Of a stretch of 64,000 nucleotides of DNA, positions 13,710 through 42,560 are shown one piece after another (positions within the stretch are counted from its first letter, which is position 1; every line of letters starts with the position of its first letter). This DNA is from Bolinopsis microptera (lineage: Eukaryota > Ctenophora > Tentaculata > Lobata > Bolinopsidae): positions 12,923,453 through 12,987,452 of the forward strand of contig NC_087084.1 of the NCBI RefSeq assembly GCF_026151205.1. Reading direction: 5' to 3'. Below the pieces are notes generated by a model. That model searched no databases. It was not told the DNA's origin and worked only from the letters and a program-made list of their open reading frames with translations. Made by a program: the position numbers and the translations under genes.

Positions 13710-13737
13710 TAGGCCTGGGACCACTCAATGGGCAGTT

Positions 13738-13859
13738 TTAATACTTTCAACACTACTATATAACAAATAATTTGAGGTAAGATTAAGTTCCAATGTGTAA
13801 CTGGTTCTCTCCGGAGACCAGACCTCACATCTTTTGGTAAGCCTTCCACAAGGAGGGCT
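13738..13859 (+). ncRNA. Spliced-leader (SL) RNA gene, unit 1
   Basis: The exon of about 39 nt begins TTAATACTTTCAACAC and ends ATAATTTGAG, followed directly by a GTAAGA splice donor at 13777. The intron-like part has a stem-loop (CTGGT, bulged T, CTC / GAGACCAG, loop TCCG, 13801-13821), an Sm-like site ATCTTTTGG (13829-13837), and a 3' hairpin AGCCTTCC-ACAA-GGAGGGCT (13840-13859, one G-U pair). This order of exon, donor, stem, Sm site and terminal hairpin is the standard SL RNA layout. Independent support comes from 32950-32988, where the exon alone, cut exactly at the donor, sits at the 5' end of a LINE. The true 5' end is uncertain by a few bases. It should donate the leader in trans-splicing in the nucleus. 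Confidence 0.85.
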
Positions 13860-14089: not shown

Positions 14090-14207
14090 GGATACGGCCA
14101 TACTCGGTTGAATACACCCCATCTCGTTCGATCTGGGAAGTTAAGCAACTGCAGGCCGGGTTAGTACTTGGATGGGTGACCGCCTGGGAATTCCCGGTGC
14201 CGTATCC
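14090..14207 (+). rRNA. 5S ribosomal RNA, unit 1
   Basis: The 118-nt gene carries the invariant 5S core: GGAAGTTAAGCA followed by GGTTAGTACTTGGATGGG and TGACCGCCTGGGAA, which also form the internal Pol III promoter (A box to C box). The first nine bases GGATACGGC pair perfectly with the last nine GCCGTATCC, giving helix I. A TTTT terminator follows immediately at 14208-14211. It starts 230 bp after the end of the SL gene on the same strand. Confidence 0.96.
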
Positions 14208-14616
14208 TTTTGCAAATGATTTGTTAATTTCCTCATTTTTTGAGAGGGTGACCCTTTTTTGGGCAACATGACCCCTAAAATGGCCCCCCCCCCCCCCCCA
14301 TTTCATCTGAATGACCGGCAAAAGTTGAGAAGAGGTCGGAACAGTGTCAAGAGCACTGTGATGTAGTGTGTGCAGCATCGAGCTGCATCTCCAACACGTC
14401 CAATTACATCCCTTTTAAGGTGGCTAATGGGAAAGCCATTATGGGCAACATGAGATGGTCAGGTGACCACTTTGGCGTTAAATCGTGCTATCTTGTGACC
14501 TCACGTGTCTCATTACTTGCCGCTCTGGAGGGTAGCAAGGAAATATTCTACAGATCCGAGCAAGGAAAGAGCTAGGTTGACATATAAGTAGGCCTGGGAC
14601 CACTCAATGGGCAGTT

Positions 14617-14738
14617 TTAATACTTTCAACACTACTATATAACAAATAATTTGAGGTAAGATTAAGTTCCAATGTGTAACTGGTTCTCTCCGGAGACCAG
14701 ACCTCACATCTTTTGGTAAGCCTTCCACAAGGAGGGCT
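14617..14738 (+). ncRNA. Spliced-leader RNA gene, unit 2
   Basis: Identical to unit 1 across the exon (14617-14655), donor, middle stem, Sm-like site and terminal hairpin. The TATA-like box precedes it at the same distance. It is a full copy with no visible defect. Confidence 0.84.
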
Positions 14739-14969: not shown

Positions 14970-15087
14970 GGATACGGCCATACTCGGTTGAATACACCCC
15001 ATCTCGTTCGATCTGGGAAGTTAAGCAACTGCAGGCCGGGTTAGTACTTGGATGGGTGACCGCCTGGGAATTCCCGGTGCCGTATCC
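14970..15087 (+). rRNA. 5S ribosomal RNA, unit 2
   Basis: Same 118-nt sequence as unit 1, with a perfect helix I (GGATACGGC/GCCGTATCC) and a TTTT terminator directly after it. Confidence 0.96.
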
Positions 15088-21824: not shown

Positions 21825-21953
21825 TGTTATATATGGTAATTTATTATGTATTATTATGTAACTTATTTACTAATGTATATATTCCTTAGTCTCCTATGAC
21901 CATAGTTGGTACAAGAATCAGTGGGTTTCATTTGTCAGATACAGTATATAAAA
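21825..21953 (+). repeat. 5' LTR, 129 bp
   Basis: Begins TGTTATATATGG and ends CAGTATATAAAA; identical over its length to the 3' LTR. It is very short for a gypsy-type LTR. The end does not show the common CA dinucleotide unless the border is moved two bases into the flank, so the 3' limit is uncertain by a few bases. Confidence 0.9.
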
Positions 21954-21954
21954 A

Positions 21955-21972
21955 TGGCGACGAGCTATAAAC
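21955..21972 (+). promoter_or_regulatory. Putative primer-binding site
   Basis: TGGCGACGAGC starts one base after the 5' LTR, the position where a tRNA 3' end primes minus-strand synthesis. TGG matches the complement of the universal CCA end. Which tRNA is used cannot be decided here. Confidence 0.6.
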
Positions 21973-24900
21973 GGACTTACAACGGCGGATCAGATTTTGA
22001 TGAGTTTAGTGAACAATTCGAGTTATGGGTGAGCCTCAGAGAAGACTATATCGAGGAGTTACCGGTAAGAGAGAATTTTGCAAATGACGAATCGTTCAAT
22101 ACTCAAACAGGGTTGTATAATGCATGTGAACTGAAGAAACGCAAACAGTTTTTGACAGCGTTGGAGCCATCAGTCTATGCCGATATGAAAAACGTTGTGT
22201 ATCCACGTCAGTTAGTGCAAATTCCCTACACAGAACTGAAACAGTTAGTGAGAGATCATTTCTGTCCAAAGCCAACAGTGCCAACCGAACGTTTTACATT
22301 CAGTCGTATGAAGCAAGGAAACAATGAATCAGTGCAAGCTTATGTTTCAAGATTAAAATCTTGTGCGCAACGGAGTAACTTCACTGGTAATGTGTTCAAC
22401 ACAAGATGTCTTGAACAGTTTATTTCTGGATTGTTTTGCGATGATTTTCGGGACATGTTGTTAGCTGAGGACTGGGAAACGCTCACTTTTATTACTGCTG
22501 TAGAGAAAATTGTTACTAAAGAGCGTTCAAAGAGGGAGACTCAGATTGTTGGTAAGGATGCGGTGACGCCGTCTACGTCCGGTGCAGCTGGTGTGAATCG
22601 CGTTAACAAGTGGAGGAAACCAGCAGGGGACTATTCTGGCAAGCAGCAAGGTAAAGGTAAGAAGCCTGGTAAACCTAAGTCAAATATAATTTGCAACAAG
22701 TGCAAATTGCCGGGACACATATTTAAAGATTGCAAAACGAGATGTTTTAAATGCAAAAGCATGGGACACATTAAGAAGAATTGTGTAAATCATGTGCAAC
22801 AAGTTGATCATGTAGATACTGATTTTGATAACGATAGTAATATTGCAAATTGGGAACCTAATTCAATTCATATAGTTGATTCTATTAACCGAGTTGATTC
22901 TAATCCGAAACCTAGAGTTTCTGTTAAGTTAGATTTAGGTGATGTTCGTAAGTCTGTCAATGTATCTATGGAGTTTGACACAGGTTCCAGTGTTGCTTTG
23001 TGTTCGGAACGTTGGTTTGTACAGTCAAGTTTGTCTTGTGTGTTGTCTCCGCATCATCAGCTTCTTAAAGTAGCTAACGGTCAGTCCGAGGAAGCTAAGG
23101 GAAAGGCTACTGTTAATGTGACATTCAAAGGAAAGAGAATCCCTGGTTTAGACTTAGTGATTGTCAAAGGGAACTTTCCGGCTTTGTTTGGATGGAACTG
23201 GATAACAGCATTCCTGGGTAAGAGTTGGTTGAAAGAGATACTGGAAAGATTCAACGCTGAGGGTAAGAGTAGTTTGTGTCAGTATGTTGTGCGAGAGGTT
23301 GAGTCAGTTGGTCTAGACCGTGAGTCCGTGTTGCAGGATCGTGTGTCTGTTGAGTGTGGCAGTGAGGTGTCACATGGTGAGACCATGGACGAGTCAGTCA
23401 GTTTGGACCGTAAGTCTGTGTTGATGTCGCAGGAACGTGTGTCCGTAAAGTGTGACAGTGTTTTGTCGCATGGTGAGACTGAGCAGCCTGATGTGTTGTG
23501 CAGTGTGAGCGAGAAGTCTGTTGTTCGTGTTAAAGACCCTAGCGAGGATGCTAAGGGAGTCAAAGACTTTGGTAGGAATACCAAGGGAGATCAGAGACTC
23601 GATGTAAGACTCATCGAGGATAAAGAAAGAAGAACAAAGACAAAGAATCAACCTGCAGCTACAGTTCTATTCAGAACTCTGGACCAGTTGAAACAGAGTG
23701 AAGTGTTCACTAGTGGTCTGGGACTTGTAGAAGGATTCAAAGCTCAACTGAGGATCAAAGACGACGCTACACCTATATCGTTGAAAGCTCGGATGTTACC
23801 GTTTGCTATAAAAGACAAGGTGAAAGAAGAACTCCAAAGAATGGTAGAAGACGGAATCTTAAAGAGTGTGGAAAGTTCTGAATGGGCAACGCCCATTGTT
23901 GTGGTTACCACAAAGCAAAAGATAAGGATCTGTGGTGATTACAAGTCAACAGTTAACAAGTGTCTCGCAGTGAAGCAGTATCCTATTCCTTCGTTAGAGG
24001 AATGTCTTCATGCAGTCAGAGGAGGTGTTGTGTTTACCGTGGTGGATATAGCCAAAGCGTACAACAATCTCGAGCTGAGGGAAGCAGATAAGACATTGAC
24101 GACGTTAAACACACCTTTTGGACTCTACCGGTGGAATCGTTTACCTTATGGCGTATCAAGCTCGGGTGCTATTTTTCAGGAAGTAGTGGATGAAGCTCTC
24201 AAGGGAATACCGATGACTGCATGTCGGATTGATGACATCATCGTGTCTGGGAGAACAAAGCAGGAACACCTGGAAAACTTGAACCGTGTGATACAAATCT
24301 TGGAGAAGAAAGGGTTTAAATGCAACCGTGAGAAGAGCCAGTTCGAGAAAGAACAAGTTGTTTACTTGGGTCACGTTATATCGAAGGACGGTATTAGAAC
24401 TGTGCAGAGTAAGGTGAAAGACTTACAAGCATCTAAAGTTCCAACGAACACGGAGGAGCTAGTCAGTTTTCTTGGAGCAGTTAACTATTATCGACGATTT
24501 CTACCAGATCTATCAACAGTAGTTGCACCACTAGATAGATTGAGGAGCAAAGATGTGTCTTGGAAGTGGACAAAGACGGAACAGAAGTCTTTTGACAAGT
24601 TGATTGAGATGCTAGGATCAGATCGAGTTTTGACTTATTATCAGCCGGAGTTGGAGCTAAAACTCGACACAGACGCATCTAGTGTTGGATTGGGCGCAGT
24701 GCTGAGCCATGTACTACCTTCAGGGGAGGAACGTCCAATAGAGTATGCTTCTAGGACTCTATCGTCAGCAGAGCGAAATTATGCTCAAATTGATAGAGAA
24801 GCGTTAGCGATTGTATGGGGGATCAAGAAGTTCAACATATACTTGTATGGACGGAAGTTTAAGCTGATCACCGACCACAGACCGCTCACTTATATCTTTG

Positions 24901-25977
24901 GAAAGAACAGACTTCCGCAGATGGCTTCAAGTAGAGTAAACCGATGGTCATTATTCCTATCAGAATATGATTATACAATTGAGTACCGGTCAACAAAGCA
25001 ACATGCAAACTGTGATTTCTTATCCAGATTACCGTGCAGTAAATCTGTGAAAACTTCAGAAGTTCAAGATGATCTAGCTGAGATATTTGCTGTTACTCTG
25101 GAGGATGCTTACATTGACGCAGAGCTGATTGCGAGGGAAACTAGAAAAGACCTTGTTTTGAGTAAGGTATTTGGTTACATTCATGAGGGATGGCCAAGTA
25201 ACTTGAAAGCAGAGGGGGATATGCAAGCATTCTGGAACAGAAGAGATGAGTTAGCATTGGAACTTAACTGTATTACCTGGGGAACGAGAGTGGTGATACC
25301 TGCACAGTTAAGAGGTCATGTCATGAAGATCTTACACAGCACGCACATTGGAATGTGTGGTATGAAATCGATAGCTAGAAGCTATGTGTATTGGCCGAGA
25401 ATAGACGCGGATATTGAAAACACATGTAAAACATGTGATAGTTGTGGAAAGTATGGTAACTCAAAACCTAGAGTCGCTGATCATCCCTGGAATCAACCAA
25501 CCGGACCATGGCAGCGGGTTCATGTGGATTATGCAGGACCGTTCATGAACAGCATGTGGTTAGTATTGCAAGATGCTTACAGCAAATGGCCGGAAGTTAT
25601 CAGGATGAACAGTTCAACAGCTCATGCTACCGTGAAAGCGTTACATACGATATTTTCTAGAACAGGATATCCTTGTGTACTGGTTTCTGACAATGGAACA
25701 CATTTCAAGAACCAGGAAATGAGCGAGTTTACCGAGAAACACAGGATCAAACATCTGTTTATTCCAATCTACAGCCCTAAGACAAACGGGATTGTTGAAA
25801 GGTTTAACGGAACATTCAAGAAAGCGCTGAAAAAGATGCGGGAAACTAATAGGGATTTGGACGAATGTTTAGCAGAGTTTCTAATCTCCTACAGGAACTG
25901 CCCTCATACGGTGACAAATACCCCACCCGCAGTTCTAATGTACGGTAGAACATTACGTTCTAACCTGCACGCATTAA

Positions 25978-27486
25978 GGCCAGAGGGGGGGGTAAACGCT
26001 CAAAAATTTTTACAAAAATATCATTCTTTAAATAAATTCATTTTTTGATGACAAAAGTTTTGCTGCCATTCACATATTTGTAACTGCTTAACTTTTTTTG
26101 ATTAATGAGGTTAACCGATTCTTACAAAATTAGGGTTGCAACGTTGAGGTTACTAAAATTGAGGTTAAGATTTTATTTTACTCCAAGATTTTTTGTTATT
26201 TCGGTCAGCAAATGTTAACTCTGAATTCTAGGTTCATAATTGTCAGTAAAAACGCTATCTAAACGTTTATAAATGAGGTTAACCTCTTAATTTAGGTATA
26301 GCGAAAATAGATAAGACGATAGGGTTGTTATTTTTATCGTAAGATTACGACATACAAATTTCTAAATAGATGTAGTGCTGATTCACTTAATTTTATCTCG
26401 AGAAAGTGTTGAAAATGAGGTTAACCATCACACTTGGTATTTTAAGAATTATTTACATACGATTCTTACTTTTGTTATGTACCACAATATCACAGTGAGG
26501 TATCTATTTGTATTACAATGCCTCAAATATTATCACGTGACAAAGGTGATTTGGAATGACCATGTTTAAGTAGAAGAGTTCACCCGTAAATGGCTCAAAA
26601 ATGAGGTTAACCTCTCATTTGTTGAATATTGGGCCAGTCAATCACATGTTAACCTCAAAAACTTTATCGTTACACTGAGCAAATGTTTTATTACATGTAT
26701 AGCAATGTATTGATAAACCAATCCCAGTGTAATATGGTCTATAGCGAGGTTAACAATCATATTTTTACAACTATTACAAGATATCATGATCTAGTTAACC
26801 TCATTTTTAGACAAATTTTGGTTTATGATGTTGATTTTCCCAATATAAAGTATCTCAATGAAGATCTTTACACCTTAAAGCAAAAATTGTATGGAGACGC
26901 TACTAAATACGGAAAACAATGCACAATTTGAGATTTTGGCAGTGAAATGAAAACACCAAAACTCATTTTACTCGAAACGGTTTTTTTCATACCAAAATCC
27001 TTAACTTGAGAAGACTGGCCACATTCAGAAGCTGAAACTTGGCACAGGTGTTCTTTGGGGTGTTAGGCAAAAACGTTATGTTTTAGAATTTTGATTTTTG
27101 CCTTTGTTCTTGAAATATGAGGTTAACTTTACCCCAAATTCGAAATAAAATCGAATTTGGGTTAAAGTTAACCTCATATTTCAAGAACAAAGGCAAAAAT
27201 CAAAATTCTAAAACATAACGTTTTTGCCTTACACCCCAAAGAACACCTGTGCCAAGTTTCAGCTTCTGGGTGTAGCCAGTCTTCTCAAGTTAAGGTTTTT
27301 AAACTTTTTACAGTTTAAGTTAAAGGTTTACATGTAATTACAGGTAAACCTCAATATTTGGCGCGCGATATCTCAAAAACGCAAGGTCAAATTTCGGTCC
27401 GGTTTTTTTCTTCTTGTTCGTCTCCAGCAGCTCTGATCAAATATGTGAAAACTGGAAAAACGAATTTTACCCCCCCCCCTCTGGCC
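25978..27486. mobile_element. 1.5-kb non-autonomous TTAA-flanked transposon (piggyBac-type signature)
   Basis: The insert lies between two TTAA tetranucleotides (25974-25977 and 27487-27490). It has terminal inverted repeats GGCCAGAGGGGGG..GTAAA at the left end and the complement at the right end. Removing insert plus one TTAA brings the two halves of pol into phase, which proves a precise target duplication. TTAA targets are typical of the piggyBac superfamily. No transposase is seen, so it would depend on enzyme supplied elsewhere. Internally it carries at least nine GGTTAAC-type motifs in both directions (TGAGGTTAAC and its complement) and a very large hairpin. Confidence 0.88.
26999..27295. 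repeat. Near-perfect 145-bp inverted repeat (giant hairpin) inside the transposon
   Basis: The left arm (26999-27143) starts CCTTAACTTGAGAAGACTGG and the right arm (27151-27295) ends with its complement; a 7-nt loop AATAAAA separates them. The arms differ at only a few positions. A transcript would fold into a long double-stranded RNA. Confidence 0.92.
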
Positions 27487-28608: not shown

Positions 28609-29008
28609 TTTTGCAAATGATTTGTTAATTTCCTCATTTTTTGAGAGGGTGACCCTTTTTTAGGCAACGTGACCCCTAAAATGGCCCCCCCATTTCATCT
28701 GAATGGCCGGCCAAACTTGAGGAGAGGTCGGAACAGTGTCAAGAGCACTGTGATGTAGTGTGGGCAGCATCGAGCTGCATCTCCAACACGTCCAATTACA
28801 TCCCTTTTAAGGTGGCTAATGGGAAAGCCATTATGGGCAACATGAGATGGTCAGGTGACCACTTTGGCGTTAAATCATGCTATCTTGTGACCTCACGTGT
28901 CTCATTACTTGCCGCTCTGGAGGGTAGCAAGGAAATATTCTACAGATCCGAGCAAGGAAAGAGCTAGGTTGACATATAACCAGGCCTGGGACCACTCAAT
29001 GGGCAGTT

Positions 29009-29130
29009 TTAATACTTTCAACACTACTATCTAACAAATAATTTGAGGTAAGATTAAGTTCCAATGTGTAACTGGTTCTCTCCGGAGACCAGACCTAACA
29101 TCTTTTGGTAAGCCTTCCACAAGGAGGGCT
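29009..29130 (+). ncRNA. Spliced-leader RNA gene, unit 8 (variant)
   Basis: Exon 29009-29047 has one substitution (CTATCTAAC instead of CTATATAAC). The donor, middle stem, Sm-like site and terminal hairpin are kept. The upstream TATA-like sequence is changed (ATATAACC). It is the last unit of the array and differs from the others along its length, so it may be a decaying or a minor variant SL gene. Confidence 0.65.
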
Positions 29131-29757: not shown

Positions 29758-29785
29758 TAAACAGTTAGGTGAAAATTGAGAATTG

Positions 29786-30334
29786 AGATACTGTGTTATA
29801 TTGTGTGGGGTTAATGACCTGAAACAAACAGATGTAAAAAGCCAAAACGATATTGATATAATCTACAACCATCTAGTTTCAAAAATTGCCCAGATTCAAT
29901 CTATTAATCCGGGTGTGCATGTATATGTTTGTCCAACAATTCCTTCTAAACGTGCTGATTTAAATAGAAAGCTTATATACTTTAACAGTTTGATTCGATG
30001 TAGGCTGCTCCCGTCCAATTTTGGTGTCAGTTATGTGGATGGATTTGATGAGTTCTGTGATAGGGATGGTCTCCTTGACCGCTCTCTCTCTCGCGACCTC
30101 AACAAATACCAAAAACCGGACTTCCTTCACCTCAACTGGAGGGGACTAGCAAAGTTAGGTCAATTTATTCGTAACACTGTTCTTCTCAGGATTAACGGTG
30201 GTATCGACAAAAGGAAGAGGAGGTCCACAAGGGTAGACGATAGATCCTACAGGGATGCGACTGCTGGAAGAGAAACTGGTCCTGTTGTTCCTGCTGCTGC
30301 TAGTCAGGGTCACGTGGATGGTTACCAACCATGA
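29786..30334 (+). pseudogene. LINE A ORF1, C-terminal half (SGNH esterase part)
   Basis: The product keeps the GVNDL block, the PDFLHLN block with the Asp and His of the catalytic triad, and the basic tail (KRKRRS). It lacks the GDS serine block, the AlkB-like part and the PHD finger present in LINE B. It is about 88 percent or more alike to B by eye. Its stop codon overlaps the ORF2 start as ATGA (30331-30334), a layout seen in elements that couple the two ORFs by termination-reinitiation. Confidence 0.85.
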
Positions 30335-32949
30335 CTCCCCTCATTAAGGAGGTATGTCCTGTCTGTTCTAAGAACATAGTCATCGGCCAAACAATAGTTG
30401 AATGTTTTCACTGTGACTGCATAATGCACCATAAATGCTATCGCAAATCAAATCCAAATAGCCAATCTAATGAGTTTTACTGTACTCGTTGTATCCATTT
30501 AGACAAGGTTAAATACAACCCATTTAAACTACTCACTGACAATGACGACGACGACAACAACCTAGACGAATACACAACCAAAATCTCAAATACTTTAAAT
30601 GATTGTAACTCATACACTGCATCTGACCTTACAAATATTCTCTGCAACCAAGTAAAGAAACAATCATCTATTCTCTTTCAAAATATTGATGGAAATAAAT
30701 CAAATTTTGACAACCTTGCCATTGAAACCTGTAGGTACAAAACAAAATTCTCCGTAATAGCCCTAGCTGAAACCAACACTGGAAAAGAATTAAGCAATCT
30801 ATTTCAGCTCGACGGTTATAATAGTTACTATCAGGACACAGCACCTAACAAACAAAAGGGCACTGGAGTAGCCCTTTATGTTGACGATAAATTAAATGCT
30901 ACTGTAATTGAGAATATATCACAAGTCACAGAACATCTAGAAATACTTGTCTTATCATTAAGTAACGAAGATCAACCTGTTAATGTAGGTGTTTTGTATC
31001 GTCCACCAAGTGGCTGTATTTCCCAAGCTCTAGTTGAACTTTCTAACCTTCTTGATCACATGCCGAAGTTTAGCTATCTAGCTGGAGACTTTAATATCGA
31101 TCTTCATGATAAAGATAACAAAAATGTTCAAAAATATGAAGAAATATTATTCAGTAAAGGATTTTGTCCGTTAATATCGATTGTTACCCACGAAAAACCA
31201 GGCTGTAAAGCATCCTGCATAGACAACATTATTACTAACGATATTGAGAATGTGATTACTTCAGGCACCCTAAAAGAACGAATAACTCATCACTCACCTA
31301 TTTTTAACACATTTAACTGGAATGTTGAAGTCAACTCTGAAAAAACTTCTTTTAAACAATATTACGACTTCTGTCAATCAAATGTTAACGGCTTCCTAGT
31401 GGATCTTGAAGATGAGCTTAAAACTAAAACAATCCATAACTTTACTGAATTCCATGACACTTACAAAAACTGCGTCGAAAAATCGTTTAAACTAGAGACC
31501 CCGAAAACGTATAAGAGAACTGTTCAGGTTAACCCTTGGATAACTCCCGGTCTCATTTGCTCAATTAATAATCAGCATAAACTGTACGAAAATTGGGTTG
31601 AGATAAGAAATAGAAAATGTAAACTCGGGGAAACTGATAACAAGGGCGGCATTTGCCAGTGCCCTGAATGCTCACTAAAACGTAGTCGCTACCTTATCTA
31701 CAAAGAATACAGAAAAGTCCTAAAGAAAACACGTCAAACTGTGAAAACAGAATACTTCTCTGGTAAATTTGCTGAAAATAGCGGTGATAGTAAAAAGACC
31801 TGGGAACTAATAAATCGTATAAGAGGTAAACGGCGGCGTGAAATAAAGCCGCTGTTCACCATAGACAACGTTAAGATAACAAATAGAAGTATCATAGCAA
31901 ACGAATTCAATAAATATTTTGTATCATTAGCCTCTGACCTAAATACCGCTTACAATGATCTTGGACAAATTAACATAAACAGTATACCTAGTTTCTATGA
32001 TTATCTACCGCTTTCAAACACTTCCAGCATTTACATGCATGACTGCACAACAGACGAGGTTAGCAAAATCATATCTGAACTTAAAAATGGCAAGGCAAGT
32101 GACATACCGATTCATGTAATTAAGCAGTCCTCTAAAATAGTTACTCCTTTACTCACTGTACTGTATAACGAATGTATGAAAGATGGCATATTTCCAGATG
32201 ACCTTAAAGTTGGAAGGATTAGTCCCATTTACAAGAAAGATAACCAGGAACTCCTTGAAAACTATAGACCTGTATCAACGCTAGCTGTGTTTGGTAAAAT
32301 ATTTGAAAAGATTATATTCAATAGATTATACAGCTTCTTTCATTCACAGAACTCCTTATATGAAAACCAGTACGGATTCCGTAAAAATCACTCGACCAGT
32401 TATGCCCTAAATTACTCAGTGAACCACGTAGAATCTTGCCTCAAGAAAAAACAACACGTTCTTGGAATATTTATTGATCTTAGTAAAGCCTTTGATACAA
32501 TATCACATGAAAAGTTACTGCATAAGTTAGAAAATTATGGAATCCGTGGAAATGCAAATAACCTTATAGCAAGTTACCTGTCGAACAGATACCAGTATGT
32601 CTCAGTATTAGGTGAAGAATCCGAGAAACTTCCAGTAGTCTATGGAGTGCCGCAGGGGAGCTGTCTTGGTCCCTTACTTTTTATTATTTATATTAATGAC
32701 ATCCGTAACTCATCAATTATAGGAAAGTTTATACTATTTGCCGACGACACTAACATATTTATAGAAGACACATGTGTCAAAAGACTATACGAAAAAGGAA
32801 ATGAAGTTCTATCATTTGTGTACAAGTATATGAAACTAAACTTATTACATATTAACATTAAGAAATGTTGTTTTATTCATTTAAACCCTCACGGGCCAAA
32901 GAGGAAGTAGAAAATGACGAGAACATACTAACTTTAAATAATGTAGTTA
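30331..32949 (+). pseudogene. LINE A ORF2, N-terminal part (zinc finger, endonuclease, RT)
   Basis: The frame starts at ATG 30331 with a C4HC3-type zinc finger. The AP endonuclease follows (ALAETNTG, AGDFNIDL, CIDNIITND, THHSPIF), then RT (FIDLSKAFDT, GVPQGSCLGPLLF, FADDTNIF). A one-base deletion near 32885, relative to LINE B, shifts the frame and gives a stop at 32908-32910. Homology then continues to the break at 32949. Its remainder is at 40274-41005. Confidence 0.88.
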
Positions 32950-32988
32950 TTAATACTTTCAACACTACTATATAACAAATAATTTGAG
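32950..32988 (+). other. Integrated spliced-leader exon at the 5' end of LINE B
   Basis: All 39 bases match the SL exon of units 1-7 (13738-13776 and copies). The match stops exactly at the splice donor: the SL genes continue GTAAGA, whereas here the sequence continues TGTTCAGG. No other part of the SL–5S unit is present. This is what reverse transcription of a trans-spliced LINE mRNA would leave. Confidence 0.9.
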
Positions 32989-33037
32989 TGTTCAGGAATG
33001 GTATGTTACAACTCCCCCGAAGGGGCGTACTAAGCTA

Positions 33038-33087
33038 AGGGTCATCTACACTCTATTAGGGTCATCTACACTTTACTAGGGTCATCA
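33038..33087 (+). repeat. 20-bp repeats in the 5' UTR of LINE B
   Basis: AGGGTCATCTACACTCTATT is followed by a second copy with two changes and by a partial third (AGGGTCATCAAC). The 5' UTR also contains a short inverted pair CCGAC/GTCGG around 33133-33147. Confidence 0.85.
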
Positions 33088-33184
33088 ACTCTGAAGTCCT
33101 AATCCCCTCCAAAACAAAACACTTAACGGGAGCCGACCCCAAGTCGGATCTATTTGGTCAGTATTACTTATATTTGATTTGAGA

Positions 33185-35347
33185 ATGGCGACAAATAGGA
33201 AGAATTCAGGTACTCCTAAAACATCTAATAGCTTGTCTCGCAACATTTTAGCTGAATCTACAGTGGACAATGAAGATCAGGAAAACAGGAAACATAGGGA
33301 CAAGAAGAAATGTCCATGTCAACGCTCTTTTAACGGTAAAGTTTACCTCATTGACTGTTCTAAGTGTCATCAAGAGTGGCATGTGGACTGCCTGTCTATG
33401 AAGGGTATAACGAGGTCAGCTATCAACTCCATGGTAGAATGGCTGTGCCCATACTGCTTCGTGGCACCAGTATCAACACTGAAGAAACAGAGAGGTGAAT
33501 TTTGTTACAGCTGCAGGAACACAAGGGCTTTGCAACAGGCCAACTCAGATTTTGAAGCATCTACAGCTGTTAAGAATCTCGAAACTGTCAGTGCACTCGT
33601 GGCATCAGCAAGCTCAGCAGGCTCAGCTCTTGAAAAATTTGACTTCGAACAGTTCTCTAGGAACCTTGACACTCTCTCCCAGTTCGACGTTCACCTTCAA
33701 CACCTGCTTCTTAAAGAGAACTCCCTTAATGGGCTAAATAATGAAATAAAGCTTCAGGACAAATCATTAGAATCAATCAATACTAATATTGCCGAACTTC
33801 AGAAGGACCTGAAACTTCTGTCATCCAGACCATCTACAGAACCATCCTCACCCTCAGCTTCATCTGAGCAGTTTCTGAAGGACATCTCTGAACAGCTCAC
33901 TGTACTCTGTGCCAATGAGCACACTGCAGCTGCAGGCATAAGTGAATTGAAACAATCCTTAGACTCATTACAGCCATTGCATAATCCTGGCCCCTGCATT
34001 CCTCCCACCCCATTGCATCCAGGACCTCCTACTCAGCACCTTCGTTCTCCAGTCCCTACAGTCCCTGTGCAGCTACCCAATCATGAGCAGAAACCTGTGG
34101 AAATGTTCAAAGATGACTACATTGATCAGCAAACAGCAAATGATTTAGGAGAACTTTTTGTTAAGGACAGCAGTCACTTCAAAGTTGAGAACGACCGCTC
34201 CTGCCTAACATATGGGGAAAGGTATGATTACCCAGGTTCCAAGTCATCTGAAAAGCCACAGGCAATACCATCGGTTCTCAAGGAACTCATTGACAAAATC
34301 AATAATGAGTTCTGCCAGGGTGATCTACCTCAGATCAACAGCTGCTTAGTAAATCGGTTTGAAGGAACAGACAGCAAGCTACCTAGACACTCTGATGACG
34401 AGGCTACCATCCATCCAGAGTCTAAAATATTTACTGTCTCGCTTGGTTCTGCATGTCAGGTTTCTTTCTCTGACTCTCACACAGGCACTGATAAGCACAA
34501 GCAGCAATGTGACCCACGGTCCTTGTATGTTATGACACGTCATAGCCAAGCACTGTTCGACCATCGTATTGATGCAGGTGATATAGAAGGGCTACGTTAC
34601 AGCATCACACTTAGATCCGTGAATTCGTTGAACAGAAATGCCACATGCATCATCGGGGATTCAAACACTGGAGGCTTGAAATTTGGTACTGATCCTGCTA
34701 AGTCATTCGGCAAGTGGTTACCTGGCAAACGCATCTTCGCTCCGGTCATTGATAATATAGATCCTTATGTCACGTTGGGGTATAGAAACTGTGTAATATT
34801 GTGCGGGGTCAACGACCTCAAAAACGAAGACGTCAAGAACCAACATGACATTGAAATTATTTATAACGCATTAGCTTCAAAGATTGCACAGATACAATCT
34901 GTCAATCCGTGTATACATGTTTTTGTTTGTCCAGCAATTCCCTCTAAACGTGCTGACTTAAATAGAAAACTTATATATTTTAACAGTTTGATTCGACGTA
35001 GGCTGCTCCCGTCCAATTTTGGTGTCAGTTATGTGGATGGATTTGATGAGTTCTGTGATAGAGATGGTCTACTTGACCGCTCTCTCTCTCGCGACCTCAA
35101 CAAACACCAAAAACCAGACTTCCTTCACCTCAACTGGAGGGGACTAGCAAAGTTAGGTCAATTTATTCGTAACACTGTTCTTCTCAGGATTAACGGTGGT
35201 ATCGACAAAAGGAAGAGGAGGTCCACAAAGGTAGACAGTAGATCCTTCAGGGATGTGACTGCTGGAAGAGAAACTGGTCCTGTTGTTCCTGCTGCTGCTA
35301 GTCAGGGTCACGTGGATGGCTACCAACCACATGACTCCCCTCATTAA
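33185..35347 (+). CDS. LINE B ORF1: PHD finger + AlkB-like dioxygenase + SGNH esterase
   Basis: I chose ATG 33185; the in-frame TTG six bases upstream is not needed. The 720-aa product has four parts. (1) A C4HC3 PHD finger at residues about 43-91 (CPC, CSKC, H66, CPYC). (2) A linker with a possible coiled coil (about 180-210) and a Pro-rich stretch (about 265-300). (3) An AlkB-type 2OG-Fe(II) dioxygenase at about 305-480: NSCLVNRF, then RHSDDE with HxD ligands H402 and D404, SLG, H460 in FDHRID, and RYSITLR with R471 and R477 for 2-oxoglutarate. (4) An SGNH hydrolase at about 488-670 (GDS, S493; GVND, N543; DFLH, D645 and H648). The SGNH esterase is known in CR1-type ORF1s. The AlkB part suggests oxidative demethylation of nucleic acid, which is inference. 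It overlaps ORF2 by 17 bases. Confidence 0.88.
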   Translation: MATNRKNSGTPKTSNSLSRNILAESTVDNEDQENRKHRDKKKCPCQRSFNGKVYLIDCSKCHQEWHVDCLSMKGITRSAINSMVEWLCPYCFVAPVSTLKKQRGEFCYSCRNTRALQQANSDFEASTAVKNLETVSALVASASSAGSALEKFDFEQFSRNLDTLSQFDVHLQHLLLKENSLNGLNNEIKLQDKSLESINTNIAELQKDLKLLSSRPSTEPSSPSASSEQFLKDISEQLTVLCANEHTAAAGISELKQSLDSLQPLHNPGPCIPPTPLHPGPPTQHLRSPVPTVPVQLPNHEQKPVEMFKDDYIDQQTANDLGELFVKDSSHFKVENDRSCLTYGERYDYPGSKSSEKPQAIPSVLKELIDKINNEFCQGDLPQINSCLVNRFEGTDSKLPRHSDDEATIHPESKIFTVSLGSACQVSFSDSHTGTDKHKQQCDPRSLYVMTRHSQALFDHRIDAGDIEGLRYSITLRSVNSLNRNATCIIGDSNTGGLKFGTDPAKSFGKWLPGKRIFAPVIDNIDPYVTLGYRNCVILCGVNDLKNEDVKNQHDIEIIYNALASKIAQIQSVNPCIHVFVCPAIPSKRADLNRKLIYFNSLIRRRLLPSNFGVSYVDGFDEFCDRDGLLDRSLSRDLNKHQKPDFLHLNWRGLAKLGQFIRNTVLLRINGGIDKRKRRSTKVDSRSFRDVTAGRETGPVVPAAASQGHVDGYQPHDSPH

Positions 35348-38300
35348 GGAGGTATGTCTTGTCTGTTCTAAGAACATAGTCATCGGCCAAACAATAGTTG
35401 AATGTTTCCACTGTGACTGCATAATGCACCATAAATGCTATCGCAAATCCAATACAAATAGCCAATCTAATGAGTTTTACTGTACTCGTTGTATCCATTT
35501 AGACAAGGTTAAATACAACCCATTTAAACTACTCACTGACAATGACAACGACGACAACAACCTAGACGAATACACAACCAAAATCTCGAATACTTTAAAT
35601 AATTGTAACTCATACACTGCATCTGACCTTACCAATATTCTCTGCAACCAAGTAAAGAAACAATCATCTATTCTCTTTCAAAATATTGATGGAAATAAAT
35701 CAAATTTTGACAACCTTGCCATTGAAACCTGTAGGTACAAAACAAAATTCTCCGTAATAGGCCTAGCTGAAACCAACACTGGGAAAGAATTAAGCAACCT
35801 ATTTCAGCTCGACGGTTATAATAGTTACTATCAGGACACAGCACCTAACAAACAAAAGGGCACTGGAGTAGCCCTTTATGTTGACGATAGATTAAATGCT
35901 ACAGTAATTGAAAATATATCACAAGTCACAGAAAATCTAGAAATACTTGTCTTATCATTAAGTAACGAAGATCAACCTGTTAATGTAGGTGTTTTGTATC
36001 GTCCACCAAGTGGCTGTATTTCCCAAGCTCTAGTTGAACTTTCTAACCTTCTTGATCACATGCCGAAGTTTAGTTATCTAGCTGGAGACTTTAATATCGA
36101 TCTTCATGATAAAGATAACAAAAATGTACAAAAATATGAAGAAATATTGTTCAGTAAAGGATTTTGTCCGTTAATATCTATTGCTACTCACGAAAAACCA
36201 GGCTGTAAAGCATCTTGCATAGACAACATAATTACCAACGACATTGAGAATGTTATTACTTCAGGCACCCTAAAAGAACGAATAACTCACCACTCGCCTA
36301 TTTTTAACATATTTAACTGGAATGTTGAAGTCAACTCTGGAAAAACTTCTATTAAACAGTATTACGATTTCTGTCAATCAAATGTTAACGGCTTCCTAGT
36401 GGATCTTGAAGATGAGCTTAAAACTAAAATAATCCATAACTTTACTGAATTCCATGACACTTACAAAAACTGCATCGAAAAATCGTTTAAACTAGAAACC
36501 CCGAAAACCTCTAAGAGAACTGTTAAGGTTAACCCTTGGATAACTCCCGGTCTCATTTGCTCAATTAATAATCAGCATAAACTGTACGAAAATTGGGTTG
36601 AGATAAGAAATAGAAAATGTAAACTCGGGGAAACTGATAACAAGGGCGGGATTTGCCAGTGCCCTGAATGCTCACTAAAACGTAGTCGCTACCTTATCTA
36701 CAAAGAATACAGAAAAGTCCTAAAGAAAACACGTCAAACAGTGAAAACAGATTACTTCTCTGGTAAATTTGCAGAAAATAGCGGGAATAGTAAAAAGACC
36801 TGGGAACTAATTAATAGTATAAGAGGAAAACGGCGGCGTGAAATAAAGTCGCTGTTCACCATAGACAACGTTAAGATAACGAACAGGAGGATCATAGCAA
36901 ACGAATTCAATAAGTATTTCGTATCATTGGCCTCTGACCTAAATACTGCTTACAATGAACTTGGTCAAATGAACATAAACAATCTACCTAGTTTCTATGA
37001 CTATTTACCGCTCTCAAACACCTCCAGCATTTACATGCATGACTGCACAACAGACGAGGTTAGCAAAATCATATCTGAACTTAAGAACGGTAAGGCAAGT
37101 GATATTCCTATTCATGTTGTAAAACAGTCCTCAAAAATAGTCACTCCTCTACTTACTGTACTGTACAATGAATGTATGAAAGATGGCATATTCCCTGATG
37201 ACCTTAAGATTGGAAGGATTAGTCCAATTTACAAGAAAGATAACCAGGAACTCCTTGAAAATTATAGACCTGTGTCGACACTTGCAGTATTTGGTAAAAT
37301 ATTTGAAAAAATTATATTCAACAGATTATATAGCTTCTTTCATGCACAGAATTCCTTGTATGAAAACCAGTACGGATTCCGTAAAAATCATTCGACTAGT
37401 TATGCTTTAAATTACTCAGTTAACCACATAGAATCACGTCTCAAGAAAAAACAACACGTACTTGGAATATTTATTGATCTTAGCAAAGCTTTTGATACAA
37501 TCTCACATGAAAAGTTACTGCATAAGTTAGAAAATTATGGGATCCGTGGAAATGCAAACAACCTTATAGCAAGTTACCTGTCGAATAGATACCAGTATGT
37601 CTCAGTATTAGGTGAAGACTCTGAGAAACTGCCCGTTGTCTACGGAGTGCCCCAAGGGTCCTGTTTAGGTCCCCTGCTGTTTATCATCTACATAAATGAC
37701 ATCCGAAACTCATCAATTATAGGAACGTTTATACTATTTGCCGATGACACTAACATATTTATTGAAGAAACATGTGTCAGAAGACTGTACGAAAAGGGAA
37801 ATGAAGTTTTAGCATCTGTTTATAAGTATATGAAACTAAACTTATTACATATTAACATTAAGAAATGCTGTTTTATACACTTTAGACCGTCACGTGCCAA
37901 AGAGGAAGTAGAAAATGACGAGAACATATTAACTTTGAACAATGTTGTCATTAAAAAAGTCCAAGAAGCTAAATTTCTAGGTGTCATTATCGATGATCAA
38001 CTTAATTGGAAAACTCACACACGGTCACTTAACTCAAAACTTAAATGTGAAGTAGGTAAGTTATGCAGAATACGACACATTGTCCCTAAACAGTATTATA
38101 AGGATTTATACCATACTTTATTCGAATCACATTTGGGATTTGGAATATCTGTATGGGGTGGTATTAGCAACAACCGACTCGAACCTCTCTTTAAAACACA
38201 GAAAAAGTGTATAAGAATTCTATTTGGGGATAAAGAAGCTTACTTAGAAAAATTTAGAACTTGTGCCCGGACACGACCATTTGGTGAGCAAAGACTAGGT

Positions 38301-38684
38301 GTGGACTTTTACAAAAAAGAACACTCTAAACCCTTGTTTAAGAATCAGAAATTGTTAACTGTTCACAACCTGTATAAGTACACTTGTCTCTTAGAACTAT
38401 TCAAAATTAATAAGTTAGAGGAACCATTATCACTGTACTCATCATTTAACAGGTCACCACGACGAGAGGATTATTTCATCACATCACAACCATCCTCACA
38501 ATTCATCTACCAATCATCCTACATGTGGAACAGCTGTCGACAAACATCAAGTAAGATAAGTTTTAATACTCCGACAAACGGGTTTAAGAATACATTGAAA
38601 ATTGCTTTACAAGAATTGCAATTCAAGCATGATACACTTGATTGGTGTGAGCTTAATTTTGCCACGAATAAGCTCAAGTTTTGA
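35331..38684 (+). CDS. LINE B ORF2: zinc finger, AP endonuclease, reverse transcriptase
   Basis: ATG 35331 is chosen because it matches the ORF2 start in LINE A; the product is 1117 aa. Residues 9-54 form a C4HC3 finger (CLVC, CFHC, HH, CYR, CTRC). The AP endonuclease spans about 110-330, with E147, D253 and N255 of GDFN, D298 of CIDN, and H320/H321 at the usual SDH position. The RT spans about 580-840, with D716 in FIDLSKAFD, the GVPQGSCLGPLLF block and the active site FADD (803-806). The C-terminal 250 residues hold the conserved CR1-type region (AKFLGVIID, LYHTLFESHLGFGISVWG). It nicks target DNA and copies the LINE RNA in place. No stop or frameshift is visible. Confidence 0.94.
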   Translation: MTPLIKEVCLVCSKNIVIGQTIVECFHCDCIMHHKCYRKSNTNSQSNEFYCTRCIHLDKVKYNPFKLLTDNDNDDNNLDEYTTKISNTLNNCNSYTASDLTNILCNQVKKQSSILFQNIDGNKSNFDNLAIETCRYKTKFSVIGLAETNTGKELSNLFQLDGYNSYYQDTAPNKQKGTGVALYVDDRLNATVIENISQVTENLEILVLSLSNEDQPVNVGVLYRPPSGCISQALVELSNLLDHMPKFSYLAGDFNIDLHDKDNKNVQKYEEILFSKGFCPLISIATHEKPGCKASCIDNIITNDIENVITSGTLKERITHHSPIFNIFNWNVEVNSGKTSIKQYYDFCQSNVNGFLVDLEDELKTKIIHNFTEFHDTYKNCIEKSFKLETPKTSKRTVKVNPWITPGLICSINNQHKLYENWVEIRNRKCKLGETDNKGGICQCPECSLKRSRYLIYKEYRKVLKKTRQTVKTDYFSGKFAENSGNSKKTWELINSIRGKRRREIKSLFTIDNVKITNRRIIANEFNKYFVSLASDLNTAYNELGQMNINNLPSFYDYLPLSNTSSIYMHDCTTDEVSKIISELKNGKASDIPIHVVKQSSKIVTPLLTVLYNECMKDGIFPDDLKIGRISPIYKKDNQELLENYRPVSTLAVFGKIFEKIIFNRLYSFFHAQNSLYENQYGFRKNHSTSYALNYSVNHIESRLKKKQHVLGIFIDLSKAFDTISHEKLLHKLENYGIRGNANNLIASYLSNRYQYVSVLGEDSEKLPVVYGVPQGSCLGPLLFIIYINDIRNSSIIGTFILFADDTNIFIEETCVRRLYEKGNEVLASVYKYMKLNLLHINIKKCCFIHFRPSRAKEEVENDENILTLNNVVIKKVQEAKFLGVIIDDQLNWKTHTRSLNSKLKCEVGKLCRIRHIVPKQYYKDLYHTLFESHLGFGISVWGGISNNRLEPLFKTQKKCIRILFGDKEAYLEKFRTCARTRPFGEQRLGVDFYKKEHSKPLFKNQKLLTVHNLYKYTCLLELFKINKLEEPLSLYSSFNRSPRREDYFITSQPSSQFIYQSSYMWNSCRQTSSKISFNTPTNGFKNTLKIALQELQFKHDTLDWCELNFATNKLKF

Positions 38685-40245
38685 TTAATGTGAGTTACTA
38701 AAATAACCACTTATCTTTCCTCATACATGCAACCACTGCACTCCAACTAAACACATTATTTACCACAGTCCACACACCATACTCCACAGATGATATATTT
38801 ATATATACACACAAACACACTAGTACCGAACAATTGCACTGTAAAACATGCTCACGATACACTCAAAATTAGAAATATTCGGCTCGTATATGAAACTTAG
38901 CGACTTACACTCAGTGTACACCCAGTGTTAACCAGTATTACACACTAGTAAATTCTACGTAACGCGCGAAAACAATAATTCTGTAGCGTTTTCATTGTCA
39001 CATTTCACGTCGACGGGATTAAACGCGCGCGCGCGTAACAACTTATCTTACTGCTAACTCAGCGACTAAACACACAACGACTTTGACATTTGACAGATGA
39101 CTAAACAATTGTGAGTTATGACGGACTTAACTGTATGGGTCAACTACTGAAACTATATTGTTTACTATCTTATTCATTATACTGGACATGAGATGACGAA
39201 GTATCTTAAGCAGCACTTTATACCCCCACTTAGAACTTGATTAGTCACGAACAATAGAATCATCAAAAACCAATACAATAAAACATCTTGATCAATAAAT
39301 GCCTAGCAGCACCAGACAGCAGCCGTGTACCTTTTTCGACTCCGTGGAGTCCCTGATGGACTTTTGTTTACTTTTGTTAATAATCGGACTAACCTTTCTT
39401 TCTCGAAACATGTATCCTATTGTAATTCATTATAGTATTAAGATGTGAAGATATATAATACTAGATATTACAACGAAATAGAGGTATACCAAATTGGCCC
39501 TTGATATGAACTATAACCGTGTTGATGGTTTTAAATTTTGTATGTTGTAAGCACTTTAGTTTGTGAAGCGTTTACTCCTCCCCCTCAGCAAGACAGCTAG
39601 ATTATAGATTAATGATAATAATTGTCAAATGTCGTTATATATTATATAACAGTTATAAATGTTCAATAGTTGTAGAGCGACTTCAAGAGTAGTGGTCCAC
39701 AGGGGTCCGAAAAAGCCGTACAGGCACTTGGGTCCTTATCCTTGTCACTAATCTCAATTCTATTCGGTTTACACAAAGCATGAACATTTAGACGTACACA
39801 TTGACACGATATTTATTAGAAAGCAAAAAGTATAAAATAATACGTGCGTGCGCGGCTTGAGCCGCGCCGCATAAGAACGGATGCGTGCAGGGGCTGGAGT
39901 ACGCTTGTATGTAAATTAATGAAATGTTGCATTGTAAATATTTAGAATTGACGATATATTTTGATCTAAAAGTAAATTTTACAAAGCTGGCTTTGGATTT
40001 AGGTAAGATTATAATTTATTTTAAAAAAAACCACGGATAATTTTAAATGTATTTCTATTTGTCGTATAATCATAAACAATTTAATCATGTTTTTAAGAAT
40101 GCGCGGCTTTGGCGGCCAGTTATTGACTTATACATTAAATTAAATTTTAAATAGAAATGTGAATATATTAAAATTTAAAACTTTCAAAACGGAGGCTTAT
40201 AAATATTATTATATTATGATTGTAAAATAAAGGATAAAATTTTAA
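38685..40245 (+). other. 3' UTR of LINE B
   Basis: Noncoding and about 80-90 percent alike to the 3' UTR of LINE A (41006-42530). Kept in both copies are an alternating ACGCGCGCGCGCGT palindrome (39023-39036; 41326-41339 in A) and a GC hairpin GCGCGGCT-TG-AGCCGCGC (39850-39867; 42140-42157 in A). A stretch around GGTCCACAGGGGTCCG is kept as well. Conserved structure suggests a role in recognition by the RT. Confidence 0.8.
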
Positions 40246-40272
40246 ATTTGTTTCACTAAAATTTGTTTCACT
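40246..40272 (+). repeat. Tandem 3' tail of LINE B
   Basis: Two units of ATTTGTTTCACT with short A spacers end the element. The same tail closes LINE A at 42530-42560, and a close variant (ATTTTGTTTTACTTAAA) is at 57602-57638. Confidence 0.85.
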
Positions 40273-40273
40273 T

Positions 40274-41005
40274 AAAAGAGTTCAAGAAGCTAAATTTCTA
40301 GGCGTTATTATTGACGACCAACTTAACTGGAAATCACATACGCAGTCACTTAACTCAAAACTTAAATGCGAAGTAGGAAAGCTGTGCAGAATACGACACA
40401 TTGTCCCAAAGCAGTATTATAAGGATTTATATCATACTCTATTTGAATCACATTTAGGATTTGGAATATCTGTGTGGGGTGGTATTAGCAATAACCGACT
40501 TGAACCTATCTTTAAAACACAGAAAAAGTGTATAAGAATTCTGTTTGGGGATAGAGAAGCTTACCTAGAGAAGTTTAAAACGTGTGCCCGAACACGACCT
40601 GTTGATAAGCAAAGACTGGGGGTGGACTTTTACCAAAAAGAACACTCCAAGCCCTTGTTTAAAACCCACAGGTTGTTGACGGTCCACAATCTGTACAAGT
40701 ACACTTGTCTCTTAGAACTATTCAAAATTAATAAGTTAGAGGAACCATTATCACTGTACTCATCATTTAACAGGTCACCACGACGAGAGGATTATTTCAT
40801 TACATCACAACCATCCTCACAATTCATCTACCAATCATCCTACATGTGGAACAGCTGTCGACAAACATCAAGTAAGATAAGTCTTAATACTCCGACAAAC
40901 GGGTTTAAGAATATATTGAAAATTGCCTTACGAGAATTGCAATTCAAGCATGATACACTTGATTGGTGTGAGCTTAATTTTGCCACAAATGAGCTCAAGT
41001 TCTGA
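40274..41005 (+). pseudogene. LINE A ORF2, C-terminal part
   Basis: The frame resumes directly after LINE B with KRVQEAKFLGVIID and runs 243 codons to TGA at 41003-41005. It matches the C-terminal region of LINE B ORF2, including LYHTLFESHLGFGISVWGG and the Arg/Pro-rich RSPRREDYF. It is the displaced end of the gene that starts at 30331. Confidence 0.88.
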
Positions 41006-42560
41006 TTTATGTGAGTTACTAAAATGACCATATATCTTTTCTCATACATACAACCACTGCACTCCAACCAAAAACATTACTTACACCATACTCCACAAAT
41101 GATATATATATATATATACACAAACACACTAGTACCGAGCAATCGCACTGTAAAACATGCTCACGATACACTCAAAATTGGAAATATTCAACGGCTTGTA
41201 TATACACTTACACTCAGTGTACACCCAGTGTTAACTAGTATTACACACTGGTAAACTCTACGTAACGCGCGAAAATAATAATTCTATGGCGTTTTCATTG
41301 TCACATCTCACGTCGACGGGATTAAACGCGCGCGCGCGTAACATCTTATCTTACTGCTATCTCAACGAATAAACACACAACGACTTTGACAATTGACCGA
41401 CGACTTAACGATTGTGAGTTATGACGGACTTAACTGTATGGGTCAACTACTAAAACTGCATTGTATACTATCTTAATCATTATACTGGACATGAGATGAC
41501 GAAGTATCTTGAGCAGCACTTTATACCTCCACTTAGAACTTGATTAGTCACGAACAATAGAATCATTATAAATCAATACAATAAAACATCTTGATCAATA
41601 AATGCCTAGCAGCACCAGACAGCAGCCGTGTACCTTTTTCGACTCCACGGAGTCCCTGATGGACTTTTGTTTACTTTTGTTAATAATTTGACCGCAACCT
41701 TTCTTTCTCGAAACACAAATCCTACTGTACTTCATTACAGTATTAAGATAATATAAAGCAAATCATGTGAATATATGACTACGAAATAGATCTATAGATT
41801 TGTCCATAATATTTAATACCGTATTGATGGTTTTGAATTTTGTATATTGAATTTTAATGTGAAGCGTTTACTCTTCCCCCTCGGCAATTAATTAGAAAGT
41901 TAGATTAATGACAATAATTGCCAAATGACGTAGTAGATATAAATGTTCAATGTTGTAGAGTGATTTCAAGAGTATTGGTCCACAGGGGTCCGAAAAAGCC
42001 GTACAGGCACTTGGGTCCTTATCCTTGTCACTAGTCCCAATTGGATTCACTTTACACAAAACATGAACGTTTACAATTTAGACGTACACATTGGCACGAT
42101 ATTTATTAGAAAGCAAACAGTATAACATAATACGTGCGTGCGCGGCTTGAGCCGCGCCGCATAACAATTTATGCGTTTAGGGGCTGGAGTACGCGTGTTT
42201 ACAGATTAATGAATTGTTGCATTGTAAATATTTAAAGTTGACGATATATTATGATTTAATAGTAAATTTTTCAAAGCTGGCTTTGGACTTAGGTAAAATT
42301 ATAACTTATTTATTTAAAAGACCACGGATAGTTTTAAATTTACATAGTCGTATAACTATAATCAAGTTAATCCTGTTTTCAAGAATGCGCGGCTTTGGCG
42401 GCCAATTATTGACTTGTACATATAATTGAATTTTAAATAGAAATGTGAATGTATTAAAATTTAAAACTTTCAAAACGGAGGCTTATAAATATTATTATAT
42501 TATGATTGTAAAATAAAGGATAAAATTTTAAATTTGTTTCACTAAAAAATTTGTTTCACT
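41006..42560 (+). other. 3' UTR and tail of LINE A
   Basis: Noncoding sequence homologous to 38685-40272, with the same GC hairpin and alternating CG tract. It ends in two ATTTGTTTCACT units (42530-42560). Short open frames here are not conserved between A and B and are not genes. Confidence 0.82.

Follow-up and report, generated by a model that had tools for sequence, protein, structure and literature searches.

LINE B, a retrotransposon of the ctenophore Bolinopsis microptera, and several further retroelement families carry a spliced leader (SL) exon at the 5′ ends of their genomic copies. It is very probable that nearly every cycle of these elements includes trans-splicing of their RNA, which is then reverse-transcribed as far as its end or close to it and integrated. 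The LINE B copy described here lies within a stretch of 64,000 nucleotides of contig NC_087084.1 (positions 12,923,453 to 12,987,452, hereafter the window). The genome searched comprised 264.65 Mb in 232 contigs.

The spliced leader and LINE B in the window

The 36-nt SL1 core (ATAC...TTTGAG) is present without mismatches in seven SL-5S repeat units of the window, at 13741, 14620, 15499, 18861, 19745, 20625 and 21509. The complete SL1 exon is about 43 nt long (AGTTTTAATAC...TTTGAG). It occupies 13734..13776 on the forward strand in the first unit, and the other exons, on the same strand, end at 14655, 15534, 18896, 19780, 20660 and 21544. Six 5S rRNA genes were found in the array with Rfam, one at 14090..14208 (forward strand) and the others at 14970, 15846, 19210, 20087 and 20974. 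At up to three mismatches, the SL1 core did not occur in 100 shuffles. A further unit has one mismatch in the core at 29012; it represents an SL RNA gene in decay (exon 29005..29047, forward strand) in which GTAAG follows. This stretch does not mark the 5′ end of the neighboring element LINE A. Directly 3′ of the SL-5S array, at 21906-26048, there is a Gypsy-like ORF with zinc knuckles and protease-, RT- and integrase-like motifs recognized by eye.

Genome-wide, 1150 copies of the SL1 core were found, 70 of them followed by GTAAG; reversed controls gave none. The copies with GTAAG are located on contigs C3, C5 and C13 in 68 cases, mostly in arrays. SL2 genes form an array on C1 with a spacing of about 434 bp, and C5 contains 20 copies of SL3 followed by GTAAG, most of them at a spacing of 428 bp. 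The SL1, SL2 and SL3 genes read have the intron start GTAAGATTAAGTTC in common, and all three types show the exon followed by a GT donor and multicopy arrays, the features used to recognize SL RNA genes. The predicted SL1 fold contains two hairpins near AUCUUUUGG (z = −2.5; the Sm-like site was chosen by eye). The SL3 fold has similar hairpins (z = −2.0), and the shorter SL2 piece folds no better than shuffles (z = +0.5). In each of the SLs, AG occurs only as the opening and the closing dinucleotide.

Another exact match to the 36-nt core starts at 32953, at the beginning of LINE B. A preliminary description of this DNA had noted that LINE B opens with the SL exon and that the identity stops at the GT donor of the SL genes, and both statements hold. 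Positions 32950-32988 are the same, base for base, as 13738-13776, the exon end in an SL-5S repeat. The same exon is followed by GTAAGATTAAG in the SL1 genes and by TGTTCAGG in LINE B. In the genome, LINE B thus begins with the exon, which stops exactly at the donor boundary, as in an SL-tagged retrocopy. The TTA at 32950-32952 fits the SL1 exon and the LINE A target alike, and the certain part of the relic, established by identity to the SL gene exon, is 32953..32988 (forward strand). The copy in the window lacks the first few bases of the exon.

LINE B is encoded on the forward strand. Its 5′UTR extends over 32989..33184, with 32989 being the first base 3′ of the trans-splice joint. ORF1 (33185..35347) encodes an AlkB-like 2OG-Fe(II) oxygenase (Pfam, 1e-14), and GDSL-like (3e-6) and PHD (1e-3) matches are both under the curated cutoffs. 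ORF2 (35316..38684) encodes a reverse transcriptase (RVT_1, 5e-37) and an APE-type endonuclease, the match to the latter (Exo_endo_phos, 4e-4) being below the cutoff. The combination of these two ORF2 domains, the endonuclease at its sub-cutoff score, is that of a CR1-like LINE, and the family may be a CR1-like LINE with a PHD/esterase ORF1. Among the 120 matches listed for the RT part of ORF2, Mnemiopsis leidyi is the sole named organism, with a best identity of 76%, and unnamed matches reach 97%. The 3′UTR (38685..40272, right boundary approximate) contains the short repeats AAATTTGTTTCACT at 40244 and 40259. One or two units of this motif were found in the window copy and in four of the five sister 3′ regions inspected; it was not found in that of L110.

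LINE B (32953 to ~40272) is nested in LINE A and interrupts its reading frame. The left part of LINE A occupies 29783..32952 on the forward strand (left limit provisional), with an ORF at 30331-32910. The right part, also on the forward strand, covers 40273..42560, the end being approximated from a 3′ motif at 42530/42547. The segment 29783-30334 resembles by eye the end of LINE B ORF1, and LINE A, a relative of LINE B, is apparently truncated at its 5′ end. One more LINE ORF2 with endonuclease and RT, diverged from LINE B, is found on the reverse strand at 45488-48679.

Leaders and joints in LINE B and other families

LINE B copies were searched for with the first 190 bases of the 5′UTR, leaving out the SL itself and skipping very common words. 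This gave 21 loci, and all 21 candidates were scored. The fraction of LINE B 5′ ends that begin with an SL exon, a figure called for in the preliminary description, is 20 of 21 loci; L051 is truncated and carries no SL. The leaders are SL1 in 17 copies, SL2 in two and SL3 in one, at four joints. SL1 is joined to TGTTC in 11 copies (L001-L008, L039, L040 and L044, the last cut inside the SL), to GAATGG in three (L041-L043), to GGTCATCTAC in two (L048, L049) and to GGTCATCAAC in one (L050). SL2 is joined to TGTTC in L046 and in L045, where it differs from SL2 by two changes, and SL3 is joined to GAATGG in L047. An SL is present in all 17 copies whose UTR extends into its first 8 bases. The same description had named an ancestral 39-bp piece unrelated to SL RNA as the finding that would speak against its reading; this is contradicted by the three SL types, each with its own gene array.

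The three internal joints, at UTR positions 8, 72 and 92, are each directly 3′ of an AG, as expected of splice acceptors; the 190-nt stretch contains 10 AGs. In the coordinates of the window, these acceptors of sister copies precede 32996 (TGTTCAG/GAATGG), 33060 (CTATTAG/GGTCATC) and 33080 (TTTACTAG/GGTCATC). The 5′-most joint has no SL-free copy for comparison. Repeats of about 20 nt (GGGTCATCTACAC...) ending in TAG are present at 33030-33090 of the 5′UTR, and two such AGs are acceptors in sister copies; the array may represent a set of backup acceptors. Short stretches (about 3-7 bp, by eye) common to both flanks were seen in five copies; they are confounded by the SL’s own GTTTTA and were not taken as target-site duplications.

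Two other families were collected using exact patterns that start at CAGG outside the SL, hence with no selection for an SL; altered copies, or copies joined further in, would be missed. Rows in which GTAAGATTA follows the leader were removed as SL genes before family clustering, and rows with GTAAGATT were removed likewise when the 5′ ends of F2 and of SL1 retrocopies were read. All 14 pattern matches of F2 (TTTCAGGAAGCAATG...) carry an SL at one joint: five SL1, seven SL2 and two SL3, the SL3 copies (L099, L102) with small changes. For one F2 copy (L124), an RT frame in the same direction is located about 2.3-4.8 kb downstream, with about 0.8 kb between unread. All 19 pattern matches of F3 (TTCAGGGATGG...) also carry an SL (12 SL1, assigned by position, and seven found by position and then read as SL2). 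The adjoining RT-like frame of F3 matches RVT_1 below the Pfam cutoff, and a comparison of the F3-type RT with solved structures gave no matches. The share of SL1 differs among the families (17/20 in LINE B, 5/14 in F2, 12/19 in F3; chi-square p = 0.013). LINE B and F2 differ in SL1 versus other leaders (17:3 against 5:9; Fisher p = 0.005).

The family of L059 carries SL3 and has an AlkB-type ORF1, with an endonuclease-RT frame in the same direction downstream (L125). In addition to LINE B ORF1, the AlkB-like 2OG-Fe(II) oxygenase was found in the first frames of two more SL-tagged families, at L059 (1e-18) and L086 (2e-7). Among the entries listed in a search of the open-licence PMC literature, none concerned an AlkB encoded by a LINE; in retroelements, AlkB is described in orchid Gypsy elements (PMC9289625). 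A Pfam search of 18 SL-adjoining frames gave PHD in eight (six below the cutoff), AlkB in two, a transposase in one, a zinc knuckle in one and no family in five. The frame of L076 matched CDK5RAP3 with a score above the cutoff (5e-6); this match spans a coiled-coil-like segment and may be a chance one, and no host-gene retrocopy was demonstrated among the 18 frames. At L012 (reverse strand, SL1 followed by CTAAGTTC...), a DDE_1 transposase frame is preceded by an SL1 relic; this locus is possibly a reverse-transcribed mRNA of a DNA transposon.

A repeat family, G000, starts with SL1 followed by CCTGAAGATG and has 165 exact matches (e.g., L023, L037 and C1:3731150-3731269). Many of the places listed are head-to-head pairs in which the 5′ ends of the SLs point towards each other, frequently no more than 100 bp apart. 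By eye, the termini resemble Penelope-type ones; no ribozyme was detected with Rfam. Hammerhead ribozymes were considered for CCTGAAGATGG and similar repeats and rejected, with no Rfam matches in 11 loci, two of which are SL gene loci.

Probable renewal of the leader

The 5′ end of the SL RNA was read from 52 SL1 retrocopies with a perfect core, a non-random sample of mixed families that includes two copies with a common flank, L016 and L017. Upstream of ATAC, the match to the SL gene broke off after 5-7 nt in 34 of the 52 and comprised at least 5 nt in 39. It had stopped by the 7th nucleotide in 47; in the remaining five it was longer, at roughly the chance level. These ends place the 5′ end of the SL RNA at about AGTTTTA and show that reverse transcription often gets that far. 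The course proposed in the preliminary description, namely trans-splicing of a LINE transcript, reverse transcription to its very end and integration, is strongly supported by the sequences, with the qualification that the end would have been reached or nearly reached, a few bases being missing in the window copy.

The cycle could proceed as follows. The transcript would begin upstream of the joint, and SL1, SL2 or SL3 RNA would be joined by trans-splicing to an AG acceptor, in most cases the one right at the element’s 5′ end. Reverse transcription of the mRNA would run to the SL 5′ end, or to a few bases short of it, and insertion would follow, so that every new copy would begin with a freshly drawn SL exon. 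In a transcript running through an inserted copy, the terminal AG of the relic SL would lie exactly at the joint and could be reused as the acceptor. Splicing there would swap the old SL for a new one with no trace and no stacking. Such a swap fits the absence of SL-free 5′ ends (0/50) and the scarcity of exact SL1-SL1 pairs within 30 nt. A single pair was found genome-wide, apparently a CCTGAAG family copy that is nested or rearranged, and tandem SL relics like those of dinoflagellates were thus not seen in this exact search. We put at about even the chances that the AG of a relic SL accepts the next SL, so that the 5′ terminus is replaced and damage there repaired every round, which would make SL trans-splicing an obligate, self-renewing step of LINE replication. 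Against such a cycle stand the lack of an evident outron in a copy inserted at random, the SLs common to some close copies (L097 and L098 in F2; L003, L004, L006 and L008 in LINE B) and the unequal SL usage of LINE B and F2.

The leaders could alternatively come from hidden masters with an outron and a true acceptor, the SL-bearing insertions being dead ends that are never re-spliced. An outron with an acceptor is the textbook route, the reuse of the relic AG is itself deduced, and such masters could have been missed by the assembly or by the exact F2 and F3 patterns. Against this, none of the 50 ends scored (17 of LINE B, 14 of F2, 19 of F3) is free of an SL; moreover, each of two LINE B subfamilies would need its own unseen master. 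We consider this explanation rather unlikely.

Were the SL exon captured once and then passed by descent as a fixed part of the 5′UTR, the leader type should follow the element trees. In F2, 14 copies were compared over 1480 bp downstream (the long-branch L103 was kept; two of 11 inner branches are starred), and the tree requires six changes of SL type versus 6.1 in shuffles, a number as low being reached in 131 of 200. The LINE B tree (17 copies, 1180 bp, L048-L051 left out; stars on three of the 14 inner branches and an unsettled bootstrap) requires six changes of SL plus acceptor versus 5.8 in shuffles, all 200 of which gave a number as low. Both trees are small and their resolution is poor, so the missing clustering of labels is weak evidence by itself, and the near-identical pairs carry the weight. 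In F2, L094 (SL1) and L095 (SL2) differ at one of 1473 bases, and L093 (SL1) and L100 (SL2) are sisters at 99/95. The sole other F2 pair within six differences, L097 and L098, differs at four of 1479 bases and has SL2 in both. In LINE B, L042 (SL1) and L047 (SL3), both joined at GAATGG, differ at one of 1180 bases; L047 differs at two of 1180 from L003, which has SL1 at TGTTC. L041 and L045, sisters at 100/98, differ in both SL and acceptor, and L003, L004, L006 and L008, all with SL1 at TGTTC, cluster together.

Unlike SLs in near-identical copies, with no fit to the trees, indicate that SL type is not simply inherited with the element body. A single capture would agree with SL1 at TGTTC in 11 of the 20 LINE B joints and with the identity of seven LINE B loci across 101 bases, and the predominance of SL1 in LINE B (17/20) leaves room for partial inheritance of an SL1 start in that family. 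Against it stand the three SL types and four joints within LINE B, the pairs one base apart in more than 1.1 kb with different SLs in LINE B and likewise in F2, the two SL types of F3 and the same SLs in unrelated families. SL2 and SL3 at the same joints in sister copies refute a single capture, which is therefore highly improbable as a general explanation. The near-universal SLs and the different SL types in near-identical copies instead favor the suggestion of the preliminary description that trans-splicing may be a regular part of the life cycle.

In other LINEs, jumps of the template to small RNAs are known, but a switch of the reverse transcriptase from LINE RNA to free SL RNA during insertion is scarcely credible here. 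Jumping should scatter the joints, but each of the three internal ones of LINE B comes directly after AG, and in the element-based searches 53 of 53 SL joints coincide with the end of the SL exon and include no intron.

Relation to known systems and meaning

The SLACS and CZAR elements of trypanosomatids are non-LTR elements that insert into SL RNA genes as targets. LINE B resembles them as a non-LTR element physically linked to an SL; here, in contrast, the SL is the element’s own 5′ terminus and the sites are scattered. In flatworms, 597 candidate SL loci that lay close to mobile elements and were discarded contained only partial leader sequence, and SL-like loci were noted beside LTR and LINE elements (PMC12582326). 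One sentence on the filtering step in that paper suggests such integration, whereas joints, SL switching, several acceptors and near-universality are described here. In dinoflagellates, SL-tagged mRNAs are reverse-transcribed and integrated, with DinoSL relics marking the 5′ end (PMC6050394, PMC12014239). According to the literature cited there, about 20-26% of full-length transcripts have multiple DinoSLs, and the same review states that few retrogenes hold several (PMC6050394). The DinoSL relics described in these sources belong to host genes, whereas the families read here encode RT, with one SL1-SL1 pair within 30 nt.

In Hydra, the SL was found at the 5′ end of 30.9% and 29.7% of transposable element Iso-Seq reads in two strains (PMC12220107). 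This is RNA evidence, and the relevant part of that study does not mention an SL in the genome at the 5′ ends of elements; in Bolinopsis, the association was read from genome sequence. For Hydra, the authors of SLFinder noted that numerous SL loci were probably false and suspected transposable elements (PMC7346339). In the ctenophore Hormiphora californensis, 718 genomic leader sequences were counted and the leader was present on 56% of Iso-Seq reads; it is clearly homologous to the SL exon described here (PMC8527503). The passages on the leader in that paper discuss first exons in common and mapping to SL loci, and draw no link to retroelements. A 36-nt leader has been reported for the chaetognath Spadella (PMC2481426). 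Exchange of SLs among LINE copies that are nearly identical was not found described in the open-licence PMC literature surveyed, and recurrent exchange, as it appears from these genomic copies, would be what is new beyond the flatworm suggestion.

The findings link SL trans-splicing to non-LTR retrotransposition in an animal. The genomic copies constitute a fossil record of trans-splicing, in which the SL used and the acceptor can be read without RNA. Retrocopies of this kind would account for the excess of leader sequences over SL RNA genes (1150 exact SL1 cores versus 70 with GTAAG), and this surplus bears on SL gene annotation elsewhere. For the LINE, trans-splicing is a possible route to restore its 5′ end and to gain an SL cap each cycle.
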